Shown in pieces: positions 44,869 through 51,742 of a DNA stretch of 64,000 bases. How positions within the stretch are numbered: position 1 is the first letter of the stretch; every line of letters begins with the position of its first letter. A program made the translations under genes and the position numbers. The stretch is from Rhodospirillaceae bacterium (GTDB lineage: Bacteria; Pseudomonadota; Alphaproteobacteria; Rhodospirillales; Rhodospirillaceae): contig JAQWRV010000006.1 of the NCBI GenBank assembly GCA_029243545.1, positions 1 through 64,000 on the forward strand, in the 5' to 3' direction. The notes below the pieces were generated by a model. That model had not been told where the DNA came from, ran no database searches, and was given only the letters and a program-made list of their open reading frames with translations.

Positions 44869-46152
44869 CTATTCACTCTTTTCGCGGGCGATGGCGCGCC
44901 AGCCGATGTCACGCCGGCAGAAACCGCCCGGCCAATCGACCTCTTTAACGGCAGTATATGCCTTGCTCTGCGCTTCCGTGACCGTCGCACCCATCGCGGT
45001 CACGCCAAGAACCCGTCCACCAGACGCCAAAACCTTGTCTCCATCGGCTTTTGTCCCTGCATGAAAAATCACCACTTCGTCTAGTGCACTGGCGGCACCG
45101 AGACCTTTGATTTCTGATCCTTTCTCATAGCTGCCCGGATACCCATTAGCAGCCATGACGACGACTAAAGCCGCATCGTCATGCCAGCGCAGATCGAAGT
45201 TTGCTAGCTGCCCATCCGCGGCAGCGATCAAGGCTGGGAGGAGATCAGACTTGAGACGCATCATCAGTACCTGACATTCCGGATCACCGAACCGAACATT
45301 GTACTCAAGAATCTTGGCGCCAGAATCGGTAATCATCAGGCCTGCATACAACACACCGGCATACGGCGCGCCTGCATCGGCCATGGCTTTGACCGACGGC
45401 GCGATAATTGTTTTCATCACTTCAGCTTCGAGGGCTTCTGTCATCACCGGCGCCGGTGAGTACGCGCCCATGCCGCCCGTATTGGGACCTGTATCGCCAT
45501 CACCAACCGCTTTGTGATCCTGCGCCGAGACCAGCGGCAGAGCCGTCGTGCCATCAACTAAGGCAAAGAAACTGGCTTCTTCACCGTCTAGAAATTCTTC
45601 AACGACAATCTCGTTGCCGGCGTCGCCAAACGCTTTGTCAGCCATCATGGTGTCGACTGCAGCGTGGGCCTCCTCAACGGTATTGCAGAGGATCACACCC
45701 TTACCGGCCGCCAAGCCGTCAGTTTTGACGACAATCGGCGCGCCTTGTTTGGATATGTAATCTTTTGCCACTTGAGAGTCGGTGAATCGCCCATACGCTG
45801 CTGTGGGTACTCCGCTGCGCGCCAGCATGTCTTTCATATAGGCCTTGGAGCCTTCAAGCCGCGCTGCGGCCGCGCTCGGACCGAAAACTTTAATTCCCGC
45901 GTTCTTCAATCGGTCAGCTAGGCCTGCAACTAAAGCCGCTTCCGGCCCGACGATGACAAAATCAATGGCCTGGTCTTTAGCAAAGTTTATAAGACCATCA
46001 AGGTCATCGGCTGAAATCGGCACACACTTGGCGGTTTTGGCGATCCCCGCATTCCCCGGGGCGCAATAGAGATGATCGCACAAAGGTGACCCTGCAATAG
46101 CCCAGCACAATGCGTGTTCCCGTCCGCCCCCACCGACAACCAAAACCTTCAT
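44869..46152 (-). CDS. purD: Phosphoribosylamine-glycine ligase (GAR synthetase)
   Basis: Second step of de novo purine synthesis. 427 residues from the ATG at 46152 ([19 protein letters not shown]); the longer frame upstream has no family support. ATP-grasp features are clear: [41 protein letters not shown], and [15 protein letters not shown] with metal-binding residues. In many alphaproteobacteria purD is next to xseA; here about 4 kb of accessory genes intervene. Confidence 0.95.
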
Positions 46153-46276
46153 AGTAAGCACTCCACTTTTCGGCACTGAGCTGTTGCATGAATCCGGTGG
46201 GCTTTGTAACACAGGATACCAATGGTGCGACCTCTGACTTAGAGTTCTTGCCCCCGTGTGGAGAAACTGAATTTAA

Positions 46277-47935
46277 ATGTTGCATCCTTTCCCCAACTTC
46301 TCTGACCTGCAGCGGGTAGCTGACGAGCGGTACGACACCTTGAGGTCTTGTCAAAAGCTCAAAAAGTCTGGCGCAGTTATTGAACCTGGTATGGATTTAA
46401 GAATCGCGGATGCCCTGTTTAGCCGAGAAATGGGTTATGTAGACCTTGTCCTTGCAGCCGTTACATTGCTGCACGCCAACCCAAGGGTCGTCTCTATACT
46501 CGACCTTGCCTGGCAAAAAGATGAACAGGCCCTTGATGCGCTTCTGGCAGACGGAACCTTGGTCGCCTTTTTGAACACGCCTTTGATACAGGCTCTTCTA
46601 TATTCATCCCCAATTCCTGATCTTGCGATGGAGCGATTGCTTACACATGTTAGGCGCCGACTACTTGACTGTGCGATCGATCAAACGTGGCGTTCTGACA
46701 CTTTTACAATGAGTGCGGTAGCCGCCCTCTCGGCGCATTCTTTTCTCACTGAATACGTGTTTGAAGAAACGCAGAAGGAATCGGACCTCATCACTAATCT
46801 ACAGAATCGGCTCGGGTCACACTCAGCTGCTGATATTGACCCATTCGATTTGGTTTTGTTGGGTTGTTACCGCGCCTTAGGAGACCTCGAATCGGCCCAG
46901 AAAATTGAAGACGCGTTAATAGTCAATTCGAATTCAACCTTAAAGGCGCTTTGGCGCATACAGGTGTCCGAACCAGAACATGAGCGTCACTTACAAGGGG
47001 GTATTCAACGCATCTCTGAAATTAATGACGCAACGTCTCGCGCCGTCCGTTCCCTCTATGAGGAGAACCCATACCCACGCTGGGTCTGTTACCCGCGCAA
47101 TCATCCCAAGCCACCACAAACGGTGCTGAGCGAGTGGTATGGCGGCGTCGATCTTGAGGCATTCGGAGCGCCTGACTCTGTAGACATTCTCGTGGCGGGA
47201 TGTGGTACAGGCCAAGCCGCAATTCTAGAAGCGGCCATGTGGCGTGATTCAAGGGTTTATGCGGTTGATCTTTCGTTGGCGAGTTTGTCGTATGGGCAGC
47301 GCTGCGCAGAAGAAATAGGTCTTTCATCTATTGAGTTTGTACAGGGCGACATTCTTGAACTTTCATCAATGGATAGGAAGTTTGACTACATCAGTTGCGT
47401 TGGTGTGCTGCATCATATGGCGGACCCCCTTGCAGGTTGGACAGTGCTGTCGAATGCATGCCGTCCAGGTGGCGTCATGCTTATAGGCCTGTACGGCGAG
47501 ATTATGCGAAAATCCATTGCAGCAGGGTCTTCGTTTTTAAAGGGCTTTACGGCAGGTAATACACCGGAAGCTATTCGCAAAGCTCGCCAGGCCTTGATCG
47601 ACCATGCACATGAGAGTGGGGAGTGGGACGAAACCTACAATTCCATTTTTAATACATTCGATTTTTACGACCTCTCTATGTGCCGCGATCTCCTGTTTCA
47701 TGTGCAAGAAGTAGATTTTTCAATCCCAATGATCGAGTCTGCGCTTAAACAACTAGGTCTGAAATTCTGTGGTTTTTTCGGCGTTGGAGATGACGCGATT
47801 CAAAAGTATCGAATATTTGCACCTCACGATCTGATGTGTACCGACTTAGCATCCTGGGAGGAATTTGAAATACAAAACCCGGGAATATTTAAGGGTATGT
47901 ACAATTTTATCGTTCAAAAACCTGTCGCAAGCTAA
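46277..47935 (+). CDS. SAM-dependent methyltransferase with N-terminal helical domain
   Basis: 552 residues. Residues about 1-250 are a helical region of unknown family (VLAAVTLLHANPRVVSILDL onward). A linker holds YEENPYPRW (about 260-268), a motif seen before class I methyltransferase domains in multidomain TPR-type enzymes. The methyltransferase domain follows: SAM loop VDILVAGCGTGQ (about 302-313), acidic strand VYAVDLSLASL, and YISCVGVLHHMADPLAGW. Substrate unknown. The next stretch holds the remnant of a tandem paralogue. AT-richer than the neighbouring purD. Confidence 0.85.
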   Translation: MLHPFPNFSDLQRVADERYDTLRSCQKLKKSGAVIEPGMDLRIADALFSREMGYVDLVLAAVTLLHANPRVVSILDLAWQKDEQALDALLADGTLVAFLNTPLIQALLYSSPIPDLAMERLLTHVRRRLLDCAIDQTWRSDTFTMSAVAALSAHSFLTEYVFEETQKESDLITNLQNRLGSHSAADIDPFDLVLLGCYRALGDLESAQKIEDALIVNSNSTLKALWRIQVSEPEHERHLQGGIQRISEINDATSRAVRSLYEENPYPRWVCYPRNHPKPPQTVLSEWYGGVDLEAFGAPDSVDILVAGCGTGQAAILEAAMWRDSRVYAVDLSLASLSYGQRCAEEIGLSSIEFVQGDILELSSMDRKFDYISCVGVLHHMADPLAGWTVLSNACRPGGVMLIGLYGEIMRKSIAAGSSFLKGFTAGNTPEAIRKARQALIDHAHESGEWDETYNSIFNTFDFYDLSMCRDLLFHVQEVDFSIPMIESALKQLGLKFCGFFGVGDDAIQKYRIFAPHDLMCTDLASWEEFEIQNPGIFKGMYNFIVQKPVAS

Positions 47936-47957
47936 GAATGTAGTTTGAGAAACGGTC

Positions 47958-48378
47958 ATGGATTTAGTAAGTAAGGTCGATGAACTGAATCGGTTTTGTC
48001 GGTCTGGCGTGGCTTCTGATTCGGGTGTTCCGAAAGACGCAGAGGAGATCATATCTGACGCGTTATTGAATCGGCTCTTCGATAGCTCCAAGCTCTGCAC
48101 AGCCGCTCTGAAGCTATTGGTGTCTGACAAAAAGACAAAGCGCATTATTGATTGTGCATGGCCCAACAACAGGGACGCGTTAGATCCCTTTGTCGCGGAT
48201 GAGCCTCTGATTTATTTGTTAAACTTACCGTTGGTGCAAGCGAGGCTTCAGACGACTCCTATACCCGATTTTTGCGTCGAGCGCCTATTGACGTTGGCGC
48301 GGCAGGTTTGAGGTTCAAAATCCTCGAATCTTTGCAGGTATGTATGACTTTATGGTTCAGAAATCTCTTGATCTGTAG
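47958..48378 (+). pseudogene. Collapsed paralogue of the upstream methyltransferase
   Basis: The first 117 codons (47958-48311) encode a protein closely resembling residues about 55-130 of the upstream methyltransferase: LPLVQARLQTTPIPDFCVER against TPLIQALLYSSPIPDLAMER. Directly after, in another frame (48310-48378), EVQNPRIFAGMYDFMVQKSL matches the extreme C-terminus of the same protein (EIQNPGIFKGMYNFIVQKPV). The whole methyltransferase domain is missing. This is an internally deleted, frameshifted tandem copy. Confidence 0.85.
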
Positions 48379-48434
48379 CCCCTACCGTTGATCCACTCGC
48401 TGACGAAAATATCTATCTGCGGCATAAGGTTAGA

Positions 48435-49964
48435 ATGATGATATTTGCGCGACATATTACGGCGAGCCTTGCGCTGGCAATTCTAATTACGGTAACTCCG
48501 TTAGGAATGGCGCAAACGGCGTCTGCCCAAGACACTATTCGTCTTGCCGTCACGGCGTTGCCGCCCAGTTTATTCAATCCTTATCGCAACACAGGCCTTC
48601 CCTACGTCTATACCTGGGGCGCTGTTTTCGATGGCCTTACTTCTATTGATGCAGGGGGGAATGTTCAGCCGGCCTTGGCAACATCCTGGGAGAATATTGA
48701 TCCTCTAACCTGGATTTTTCATCTGCGGGACGACGTAACGTTTTCAAACGGCAGGCCATTCACGGCTGACGCTGTCATCGGTGCTGTGGAATTTCTAGCA
48801 AGCGACGATGCCATTCGTGAGGTGGTTGCGCGGATGATGTTTTTTCTCGAGTCCGCGAAAGCACTCGACGATCATACAGTTGAAATTGAAACCTCCGTGC
48901 CTACGCCACTCTTGCCCCGGTTCCTGCCGCAATTTCACATTGTCGATCCTGACTATTTTCGAGAAGTGGGTCTCGAAGAATTCTCCCGGGCTCCGATAGC
49001 AACCGGCCCTTTTATAGTTGAGGTTATCCGCCCCGAACGGGTGACCTTTAGAGCCTTTAAAGACGGCTGGCGTCCTCCTGTCGAAGAACGACTGGAAATT
49101 CTGGCCATTCCCGACAACGCAACGCGAACATTGTCGGTCTCGTCAGGTCGTCTCGATGTCGCCCTCAATATGGGGCCTGAAGAAACCCAAACCATTGAAG
49201 CGCAAGGCGGTGGCCGTGTGTCCTGGCGCGACTCTGCCGTCTGGGCTTACAACTTCGTTGAAGGCCGGCAGCCGGCGCTTTCCGATGTGCGGGTGCGCGA
49301 AGCCGTCAACATTGCCGTCGACCGGGAGGCGATTATCGCTGGACTACTTGACGGAGCGACCGTTGCCGCAACGCAGCCAGCGCCGTCCACGGTGTATGGC
49401 TTTAATCCCGACTTGCCACCCATTCCTTATGATCCTGAGCGGGCAAAACTGTTGCTTGCCGAAGCGGGATACGCAGATGGTTTTGAGATGATGGTCGAAG
49501 CGACGGCAGGCTCAAGTGCTAATGACAGCGCGGTCAATTTGACCGTTTCGCAATATCTTCGCGCCATCAATGTTGATATGGAAGTTCAGACGGTGACGAC
49601 CAACCAAATCATACGCAATGTGGTAGAGGGAACGTGGAAGGGACATGCCTTTGCCCTGCATTACAACTTTGAACCGACTTCAGATGTATTGCGCGCCCTT
49701 GATACCCACTCATGCCTGTGGTCAAAACCTTGGTATTGCAATCAGGACGTTATGCCGCTCGTCGAAGCGGCTCAGACCGAATTCGATCCGGACCGCAATT
49801 TGTCTCTTAGACGTGATATTATGGCGTTCTACCGGAGTGACTGGGCGGCCCTCTTTATGTATCAAGCACCGCGTTTTGCCGCTCTAGCCCCTGGTGTATC
49901 CGGTCTGAACGTAGTCAATAACGTGATATCGTTTGACCGGATCAGCCTTGGGGTAGACCGTTAG
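48435..49964 (+). CDS. ABC transporter substrate-binding protein, family 5 (peptide/nickel type)
   Basis: 509-residue periplasmic protein with a signal peptide (ending QTASAQ). SBP_bac_5 features: LATSWENIDPLTWIFHLRDD with VTFSNGRPFTADAV, ATGPFIVEVIRPERVTFRAF, and VREAVNIAVDREAIIAGLLD. Imports oligopeptides, opines, nickel chelates or similar. No permease or ATPase genes are adjacent, so it must use partners elsewhere. Starts at ATG 48435 or 48438. Confidence 0.9.
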   Translation: MMIFARHITASLALAILITVTPLGMAQTASAQDTIRLAVTALPPSLFNPYRNTGLPYVYTWGAVFDGLTSIDAGGNVQPALATSWENIDPLTWIFHLRDDVTFSNGRPFTADAVIGAVEFLASDDAIREVVARMMFFLESAKALDDHTVEIETSVPTPLLPRFLPQFHIVDPDYFREVGLEEFSRAPIATGPFIVEVIRPERVTFRAFKDGWRPPVEERLEILAIPDNATRTLSVSSGRLDVALNMGPEETQTIEAQGGGRVSWRDSAVWAYNFVEGRQPALSDVRVREAVNIAVDREAIIAGLLDGATVAATQPAPSTVYGFNPDLPPIPYDPERAKLLLAEAGYADGFEMMVEATAGSSANDSAVNLTVSQYLRAINVDMEVQTVTTNQIIRNVVEGTWKGHAFALHYNFEPTSDVLRALDTHSCLWSKPWYCNQDVMPLVEAAQTEFDPDRNLSLRRDIMAFYRSDWAALFMYQAPRFAALAPGVSGLNVVNNVISFDRISLGVDR

Positions 49965-50004: not shown

Positions 50005-50286
50005 ATGACCATTGTGATTCGGATTGTTGCACTCGTTGCGCGTGCCTGGTTCCAACGTCACGAGTTAGATGGCAATGCCATTGCAGATCTAGTGCCGTCG
50101 CCGCATGGTGAGGCCATCGAAACATTGCATTGGCCGCTTGTGGGGAAAACGCAGCTCAACGATGACCACTCTTCGCGACAAGTTGCTTTAGGGAAGTGCA
50201 CTGAAGGGGCGCCGGTTGAGATAAAGTTCACACCGGGTGGGGCCGGAGGGGTGGGTCGAGCTGATGTGCTTTCAGAGCATGGCTAA
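50005..50286 (+). CDS. Possible 93-residue hypothetical protein overlapping xseA
   Basis: ATG at 50005 with GGAAGGG seven bases upstream; the frame ends eight bases inside the xseA start region, which would allow translational coupling. The sequence (MTIVIRIVALVARAWFQRHE onward) has no recognisable domain. It may be chance or the remains of a gene; nothing else explains 49965-50278. Confidence 0.3.
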   Translation: MTIVIRIVALVARAWFQRHELDGNAIADLVPSPHGEAIETLHWPLVGKTQLNDDHSSRQVALGKCTEGAPVEIKFTPGGAGGVGRADVLSEHG

Positions 50287-51742
50287 GCCTCCGTCCAATA
50301 TGACTTCCAATCAAAATGTACCTGAATTCTCAGTTTCCGAAGTGTCTGCAGCGCTCAAACGCACCGTTGAAGAGGCGTTCGGCTATGTGCGTATAAGGGG
50401 CGAAATATCCCAGCCTAAAGTCGCGGCGTCTGGACATTGTTACTTGCGTCTCAAAGATGACAACGCCGTCATTGACGGAATCATCTGGCGTGGCAGCATG
50501 AGTAGGCTCGCGCACAAACCGGAAGAGGGTATGGAAATCTTAGCCTCCGGCCGGTTAACTACTTATCCCGGCCGCTCAACTTATCAAATCATAATCGATT
50601 CTTTTGAGCTGGCCGGTGAAGGCGCATTACTCAAACTACTTGAAGACCGGCGTAAGCAGCTCACGGCCGAAGGTTTGTTCGCTGAAGAGCGAAAGAAACC
50701 ACTGCCACGCTTGCCGGAGATCATTGGCGTCGTGACGTCGCCTACGGGCGCCGTCATTCGAGATATCCTTCACCGGTTGAGTGACCGCTTTCCCCGTCGG
50801 GTGCTGTTGTGGCCCGTACGGGTGCAAGGCGAAGGGGCCAAGGACGAAATAGCCAACGCCATAGATGGGTTTAATGCTCTTAAGCCTGGCGGACCTATCC
50901 CCCGGCCGGATCTTATTATTGTCGCGCGCGGCGGCGGCTCGCTGGAAGATCTTTGGGCGTTCAACGAAGAGAACGTGGTCCGGGCCGCCGCGGCATCAGT
51001 GATCCCCTTGATTTCTGCTGTTGGGCATGAGACGGACACAACCCTCATTGATTTTGCCTCAGATCGGCGTGCGCCAACGCCAACAGCTGCTGCCGAAATG
51101 GCCGTCCCTGTACGCCTTGAGCTTATTGCCCAAGTAGATGAAAACGGTGTGCGTCTTGGGCAGTCGGTCAATCGGCTTTTGTCTGAGTCCCATTTGCACG
51201 TTAAAGGGCTTAGCCGTGGCTTGCCCAATTTAGCTCAATTGGTTGAACAGAAACAGCAAGACATAGACGGTTTGTCGGATCGCTTGGAGTCTGGCCCGAA
51301 GCGGTTATTAGCGGCAAAAGGCCAAGAGCTAGCAGTAGCGGCGACCGGTTTGAAGCCGGCGCGTATCAAGCTGGATGTCGAACGCTATAAGAAATCGCTT
51401 GCTGACTGGTCGAAGCGATTAGATATAGCTCTTGGCCGATCGACTGAACGGGCCGGTGAAAAGCTCGAGGGGCTGGTGGCCCGGCTGGAGTCCATATCGC
51501 CTAAGCGTGTGTTGGAACGCGGCTATGCGCTGGTGACCGACGTCCAAGGCGCGCCCGTGACTGTGGCTGCTGGTGCATCGCCCGGCTCAAACTGGCAGGT
51601 CGATTTCCAGGATGGACCTGTCGGTGTGACGGTGGGCTCGGGGGCAGGTTTTTCAACTAAAACCAAGACCAAAAAACCTCAATCGCGATCCGGCTCCCAG
51701 CCTAACTCTCAGACCGGAAATCGCCAGGGGAGCCTTTTATAA
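50279..51742 (+). CDS. xseA: Exodeoxyribonuclease VII large subunit
   Basis: Degrades single-stranded DNA with XseB. 487 residues from the ATG at 50279 (MAKPPSN); an ATG at 50300 is also possible. N-terminal OB-fold (FSVSEVSAALKRTVEEAFGY, VRIRGEISQPK), then the nuclease domain with GVVTSPTGAVIRDILHRL, IVARGGGSLEDLWAFNEE and SAVGHETDTTLIDFASDRRA. C-terminal Ser/Gln/Lys-rich tail. No xseB in view. The M23 gene starts right at its stop. Confidence 0.95.
   Translation: MAKPPSNMTSNQNVPEFSVSEVSAALKRTVEEAFGYVRIRGEISQPKVAASGHCYLRLKDDNAVIDGIIWRGSMSRLAHKPEEGMEILASGRLTTYPGRSTYQIIIDSFELAGEGALLKLLEDRRKQLTAEGLFAEERKKPLPRLPEIIGVVTSPTGAVIRDILHRLSDRFPRRVLLWPVRVQGEGAKDEIANAIDGFNALKPGGPIPRPDLIIVARGGGSLEDLWAFNEENVVRAAAASVIPLISAVGHETDTTLIDFASDRRAPTPTAAAEMAVPVRLELIAQVDENGVRLGQSVNRLLSESHLHVKGLSRGLPNLAQLVEQKQQDIDGLSDRLESGPKRLLAAKGQELAVAATGLKPARIKLDVERYKKSLADWSKRLDIALGRSTERAGEKLEGLVARLESISPKRVLERGYALVTDVQGAPVTVAAGASPGSNWQVDFQDGPVGVTVGSGAGFSTKTKTKKPQSRSGSQPNSQTGNRQGSLL

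Follow-up and report, generated by a model that had tools for sequence, protein, structure and literature searches.

Directly behind an intact methyltransferase gene (gene A) of a Rhodospirillaceae bacterium lies what is most probably a pseudogene (B), formed when a PKMT-like gene, most likely the ancestral resident of the interval between purD and xseA, lost about 1.2 kb from its interior, with A being an old, intact paralogue. By window we mean the whole stretch of DNA that was analysed, 64,000 nucleotides long; purD and xseA are what we take to be the names of the two genes that anchor the locus. The features discussed below are:

44869-46155, reverse strand: purD-like gene, the upstream anchor, with relatives of 77-81% identity beside the locus in seven of seven sister-genus genomes
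46277-47935, forward strand: gene A, intact, encoding a 552-aa protein (Pfam, AlphaFold2, fold comparison)
47958-48305, forward strand: N-terminal remnant of B, 116 codons aligned to A 12-127 (Smith-Waterman score 171), within an open frame of 117 codons at 47958-48311
48307-48378, forward strand: C-terminal remnant of B, the final 23 codons and the stop, one frame off the N-terminal piece (score 79)
48435-49964, forward strand: extracellular solute-binding protein, family 5, the downstream neighbour (Pfam SBP_bac_5, E 3.4e-66; synteny)
50237-51742, forward strand: xseA-like gene, the downstream anchor, whose sister-genus relatives (70-86% identity) also adjoin the locus

Gene A and the two ends of B

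In the AlphaFold2 model of A (mean pLDDT 90.6), helices run from residue 8 to about 240 and are followed by the catalytic domain, a class I SAM methyltransferase of PKMT-like fold (259-552) with the NPYPRW motif at 264-269. The Pfam scan matched Methyltransf_25/11 at about 304-403 (Methyltransf_25, E 4.2e-16) and found no Pfam domain upstream of this region. Promoter and terminator predictions at 46100-48600 numbered 0 and 2, with shuffles giving 2.9 and 2.7, and carry no information. The G+C content at 46001-48000 of the window, over A and B, is 49.1%, the remaining 2-kb stretches of the window having 52.5-59.1% and the three sister-genus copies of the methyltransferase gene 47.5-52.5%.

The first-pass annotation had read the sequence behind A as a shrunken paralogue whose N-terminal part is joined, one frame off, to the last 22 or so codons of the same protein. 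This was borne out, with both ends scoring far beyond shuffled sequences, and the coordinates and the length of 117 codons proved correct. Upon alignment of 47958-48378 to 46277-47935, the 117-aa product of B matched A 23-127 with a Smith-Waterman score of 171 (500 shuffles: mean 31.7, SD 4.8, maximum 54). The bases past the N-terminal frame of B encode, one frame off, FEVQNPRIFAGMYDFMVQKSLDL, which is the match to A 530-548; against these residues the C-terminal piece FEVQNPRIFAGMYDFMVQK scored 79, with a maximum of 39 in 500 shuffles. At the DNA level, 44 of 60 bases of the tail are identical to the 3′ end of A (a count derived from the alignment score of 40). The stop codon of the tail is at 48376-48378, and the TGA of the N-terminal frame (48309-48311) stands right at the join. 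A search of the bacterium's own genome with A (24 matches) likewise recovered B as a partial copy (38%, E 6.5e-15). The methyltransferase domain is indeed deleted, as the annotation had claimed: A 128-529 has no counterpart in B, amounting to about 402 codons that comprise the entire catalytic part, NPYPRW, the SAM-binding domain and much of the helical domain.

The retained part of B bears the pattern of a coding past. Comparison of B with its relative in the sister-genus genome G023 revealed 50, 32 and 72 changes at the first, second and third codon positions in 106 codons, an excess at third positions to which both genes contribute (A versus G023: 51, 33 and 67); the synonymous distances of B to A and to G023 are saturated. 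B deviates in 8 of the 39 columns on which A and the three sister-genus genes agree, and A in 9 of the 40 on which B and the three agree. This coding pattern, together with no more changes at conserved columns than in A, suggests that the deletion is recent relative to the split, though conservation of the retained part at the level of A would also fit a peptide that has been kept.

The purD-xseA locus in the sister genus

The window's genome (G000) is the only representative of its genus among 73 genomes of the family, and the sister genus is represented by seven (G001, G023, G084, G085, G086, G087 and G088). The gene order at the locus is purD (reverse), methyltransferase, [solute-binding protein], small gene and xseA. 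A single intact methyltransferase gene, 42-45% identical to A, was found at this same locus in three of the seven (G001, G023 and G084), whereas here an intact gene is accompanied by a remnant; like A, the sister-genus gene has the N-terminal segment and no TPR by Pfam. The solute-binding protein gene is present here and in G001 and is absent from this spot in the other six genomes (G023, G084, G085, G086, G087 and G088), so that variation at the locus is not confined to the methyltransferase. The small gene that precedes xseA (50005-50286 of the window) encodes 93 aa versus 160 aa in G023; its last 50 or so residues are missing and it looks truncated.

The remaining four genomes of the sister genus have no intact copy, and in one of them the manner of loss can be read directly. 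The flanks of G087 are 97-98% identical to those of G023, and G087 differs by a deletion of 1343 bp bounded by a pair of 11-bp repeats, TGCAGGCCCTG, the second member of the pair sitting immediately past the stop codon. About 107 N-terminal codons survive (G087:C35:803-1123, L042), with 10 changes relative to G023, and the reading frame continues into sequence from behind the methyltransferase gene. In G085 (L076, from purD to the small gene), both flanks are kept, and a putative final 14 or so codons of the gene, with one base missing, stand in line with the 3′ flank. The score of this tail against the tail of G084 was reached by 9 of 1000 shuffles, with a protein match of E 0.5 or worse, and its scores against the tails of G001 and G023 were lower (20 and 13); in a tree of purD and xseA, G085 is the sister of the intact G084. 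The 5′ flank is still there in the sister genomes G086 and G088, in which no piece of the gene is recognisable. Searches with the three spacers gave a top protein match of E 0.027, which is at chance level.

On our reading there were four separate losses among the eight genomes, B included. Counted on the tree, with the genome of B and G087 scored as having the gene, the losses come to two changes; the deepest forks of the sister genus are not resolved. That the same gene was lost separately in related bacteria makes B look like ordinary gene decay.

Origin and status of B

The first-pass annotation had described A and B as a tandem pair of which the second copy had shrunk. A paralogous remnant does adjoin A, but it is not a recent copy of it. 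A and B are 34.5% identical in their common part, and over the same part B is 36.2, 37.9 and 43.1% and A 44.8, 35.3 and 41.4% identical to the single-copy genes of G084, G001 and G023, respectively; the resemblance between A and B is thus no greater than that of each to the sister-genus genes. In a maximum-likelihood tree with eight outgroup sequences (from loci chosen by hand), in which B covers 25% of the columns, B joins the sister-genus genes (99/96) and A stands outside. Forcing A and B into one clade cost 7.8 log units (p-AU 0.034), or 7.0 under a mixture model (p-AU 0.040). As a control, each of the three sister-genus genes was masked to the columns of B, and all three were placed properly, with support of at least 100/99. 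Of the columns in which B has a residue other than that of the sister-genus majority, 21 show the majority residue in A, 8 show that of B and 15 show neither; for the columns in which A departs, the corresponding numbers for B are 18 with the majority, 8 with A and 15 with neither. These symmetrical counts argue that A and B did not separate recently, and the orthology of B rather than A to the sister-genus gene rests on the trees. A recent tandem duplicate of A that has since collapsed is consequently an unlikely origin for B, even though the two genes adjoin with only 22 bases between them, are similar at both ends, and are rejected as a clade only at p-AU 0.03-0.04, since their identity is no higher than that of either to the sister genus and since, in the columns where the sister-genus trio agrees and A differs, B follows the trio in 9, A in 2 and neither in 5. 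The divergence of A and B took place around that of the two genera or earlier, and B is the likelier of the two to be orthologous to the sister-genus gene and hence probably what is left of the resident gene, a step that is only moderately supported.

B bears the marks by which a pseudogene is recognised: it is homologous to an intact gene, its frame is broken, essential parts are lost, and an intact relative occupies the same locus elsewhere (G001, G023 and G084). It is most likely without function. What speaks for a different status is that its frame of 117 codons opens with an ATG 22 bases behind A and, to judge from the sequence, could still be translated; the annotation had proposed that it might be expressed as a free domain. 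If kept and expressed, such a free N-terminal segment might bind and tune A or a partner of A, as a decoy or a dominant negative, and it would accord with a retained part conserved no worse than that of A and with the N-terminal piece kept in G087 too. We nevertheless consider this very unlikely. The join of B falls inside helix 116-135 of A's model, in a helical region extending to about 240, and that of G087 inside helix 102-110; both cut helices rather than domain borders, so neither remnant is a natural domain. Moreover, the G087 frame runs on into sequence behind the gene, G085 retains the opposite end, and no free-standing copy besides B and the G087 piece was found in 317 genomes of the order, nor any in viral contigs. 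Modelled alone, B reached a pLDDT of 57.7, a low value that may come only from its thin alignment of 6 rows. Slightly less probable still is a B that continues to be made and acts on A, for example in competition for the partner or substrate of A; an internal deletion in the resident gene would then have created a regulator while the old paralogue assumed the role of the enzyme. Least probable of all is that the collapse is an artefact of assembly: the genome is a draft of 38 contigs, but the site lies well inside a contig of 322,865 bases, paralogues at 34.5% protein identity should hardly be confusable by an assembler, and similar losses are present in other assemblies.

Under the preferred reading of B as a decayed resident gene, two genes of this type would already have been present in the ancestor, unless a single one was duplicated around the divergence of the genera. 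In the sister genus one kind would have persisted at first, to be lost several times afterwards; the present genus would have kept A, which probably does the enzymatic work in it, and an internal deletion would have removed most of the other gene and left B. This deletion may have arisen by slippage or recombination, as in G087 with its bracketing 11-bp direct repeat. Genes are known to decay through deletions between short direct repeats. The G087 deletion is bracketed by such a repeat, and the deletions at B and in G085 fall inside that gene as well; the repeat is readable at G087 against the undeleted G023, and reading one at B would take the sequence of its parent. Our literature search on short direct repeats together with pseudogenes found nothing, and among the matches listed on divergent resolution none, by title, was on bacteria. 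By itself, B is a decayed gene. As a whole, the locus illustrates cleanly and on a small scale how a dispensable methyltransferase gene has disappeared more than once among related bacteria, with the deletion mechanism visible once, and it is likely a trap of hidden paralogy, the intact copy here probably not being the orthologue of the intact copy of the sister genus.

The N-terminal segment, the wider family and lysine methyltransferases

The annotation had also held that the N-terminal domain matches no family familiar to it. Indeed, no Pfam or NCBIfam model matches this segment, which nevertheless does not qualify as a domain in its own right. The initial 100 or so residues are clear in two genera only, in 5 of 317 genomes of the order (G000, twice, G001, G023, G084 and G087), with one further weak match in a 783-aa frame of G212 (E 9.9e-6), and searching for the segment alone, as the annotation had suggested, returned no stand-alone copy besides B and the G087 piece among these genomes. 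In viral contigs, 29 pattern matches yielded no confirmed copy. An independent domain was rejected on these grounds. Residues 116-240 or so of A, on the other hand, hold columns conserved across 45 members of a wider family, among them E119, R126, E168, Y198, L201 and E236, which are invariant in all 45 aligned sequences of this helical part.

This wider family is large: at least 514 relatives of A were confirmed among at least 594 matching stretches, and the 80 that were kept are, by title, mostly from Proteobacteria. We checked 42 of these 80 loci and used 41 in the 45-row alignment, leaving out L085, which is the same gene as L010. Two models that are not of methyltransferases, PF10437 and PF13344, each hit one of the 45 members only, leaving the helical part without a covering Pfam model; the other models that matched are of methyltransferases. 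The three full-length relatives scanned (L011, L012 and L002) have TPRs upstream, and Pfam detected none in A or its three sister-genus relatives. L002, which makes a third relative besides A and B, lies on their contig, about 8 kb past the window (G000:C23:71966-73282, reverse strand). Another relative, L014 (G018:C1:372645-373994), has one TAA inside the matched frame and is possibly a broken copy. A methyltransferase-like place with a TAG on the window's contig (L004, C23:188426) was dropped as a different kind of methyltransferase, presumably one acting on small molecules. Literature searches found no paper on the NPYPRW motif and nothing on TPRs together with PKMT-like enzymes.

As modelled, the catalytic part of A resembles the lysine methyltransferases Rv2067c and Rickettsia PKMT1/2. 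Rv2067c (PDB 8hkr) ranked first in the sequence search with A (E 1.1e-21), and VIA-align superimposed it on A 259-552 with Z 21.4 over 264 residues; PKMT2 and PKMT1 (5do0 and 5doo among the entries) gave Z 19.5 and 18.4, the aligned spans, that of Rv2067c included, being 263-265 residues. The PKMT1 entry 5dnk gave only Z 16.8. Among the 50 matches listed, those outside Rv2067c and the PKMTs reached at most Z 17.1 and none had more than 220 aligned residues; most fold matches fall on A 250-552. By analogy with Rv2067c and PKMT1/2, A most likely methylates a protein. As to its substrate, PF03797 autotransporter barrels occur in all eight genomes, gene present or absent, and PF03895 YadA anchors in none of the eight; since autotransporters do not track the gene, no particular substrate can be proposed from these families.

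Pfam, the model and the fold matches agree on a class I SAM-binding fold in A, which it shares with Rv2067c, Rickettsia PKMT and KmtA. The catalytic domain of Rv2067c carries inserted dimerisation subdomains (163-230 and 257-291, according to PMC10739865). Rv2067c 16-304 spans 289 positions and contains all 264 residues aligned with A; the large subdomain has 68 residues by these borders, and no fewer than 43 of them must therefore be aligned in A. By this count, rather than by a residue-by-residue alignment, we regard the inserted subdomains as present in the model of A. Unlike Rv2067c and PKMT1/2, A has an N-terminal helical domain, and its identity to these proteins is only 14-24%. PKMT1, PKMT2 and Rv2067c continue behind the catalytic domain with one or more C-terminal domains (borders from PMC11784438 and PMC10739865), whereas A ends, at residue 552, about where PKMT1 330, PKMT2 302 and Rv2067c 304 align, and by these borders has no such domains. 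We therefore call A PKMT-like rather than file it as a member; it leads to a large family that has no dedicated Pfam model and in which the catalytic part of the single member modelled resembles protein-lysine methyltransferases.
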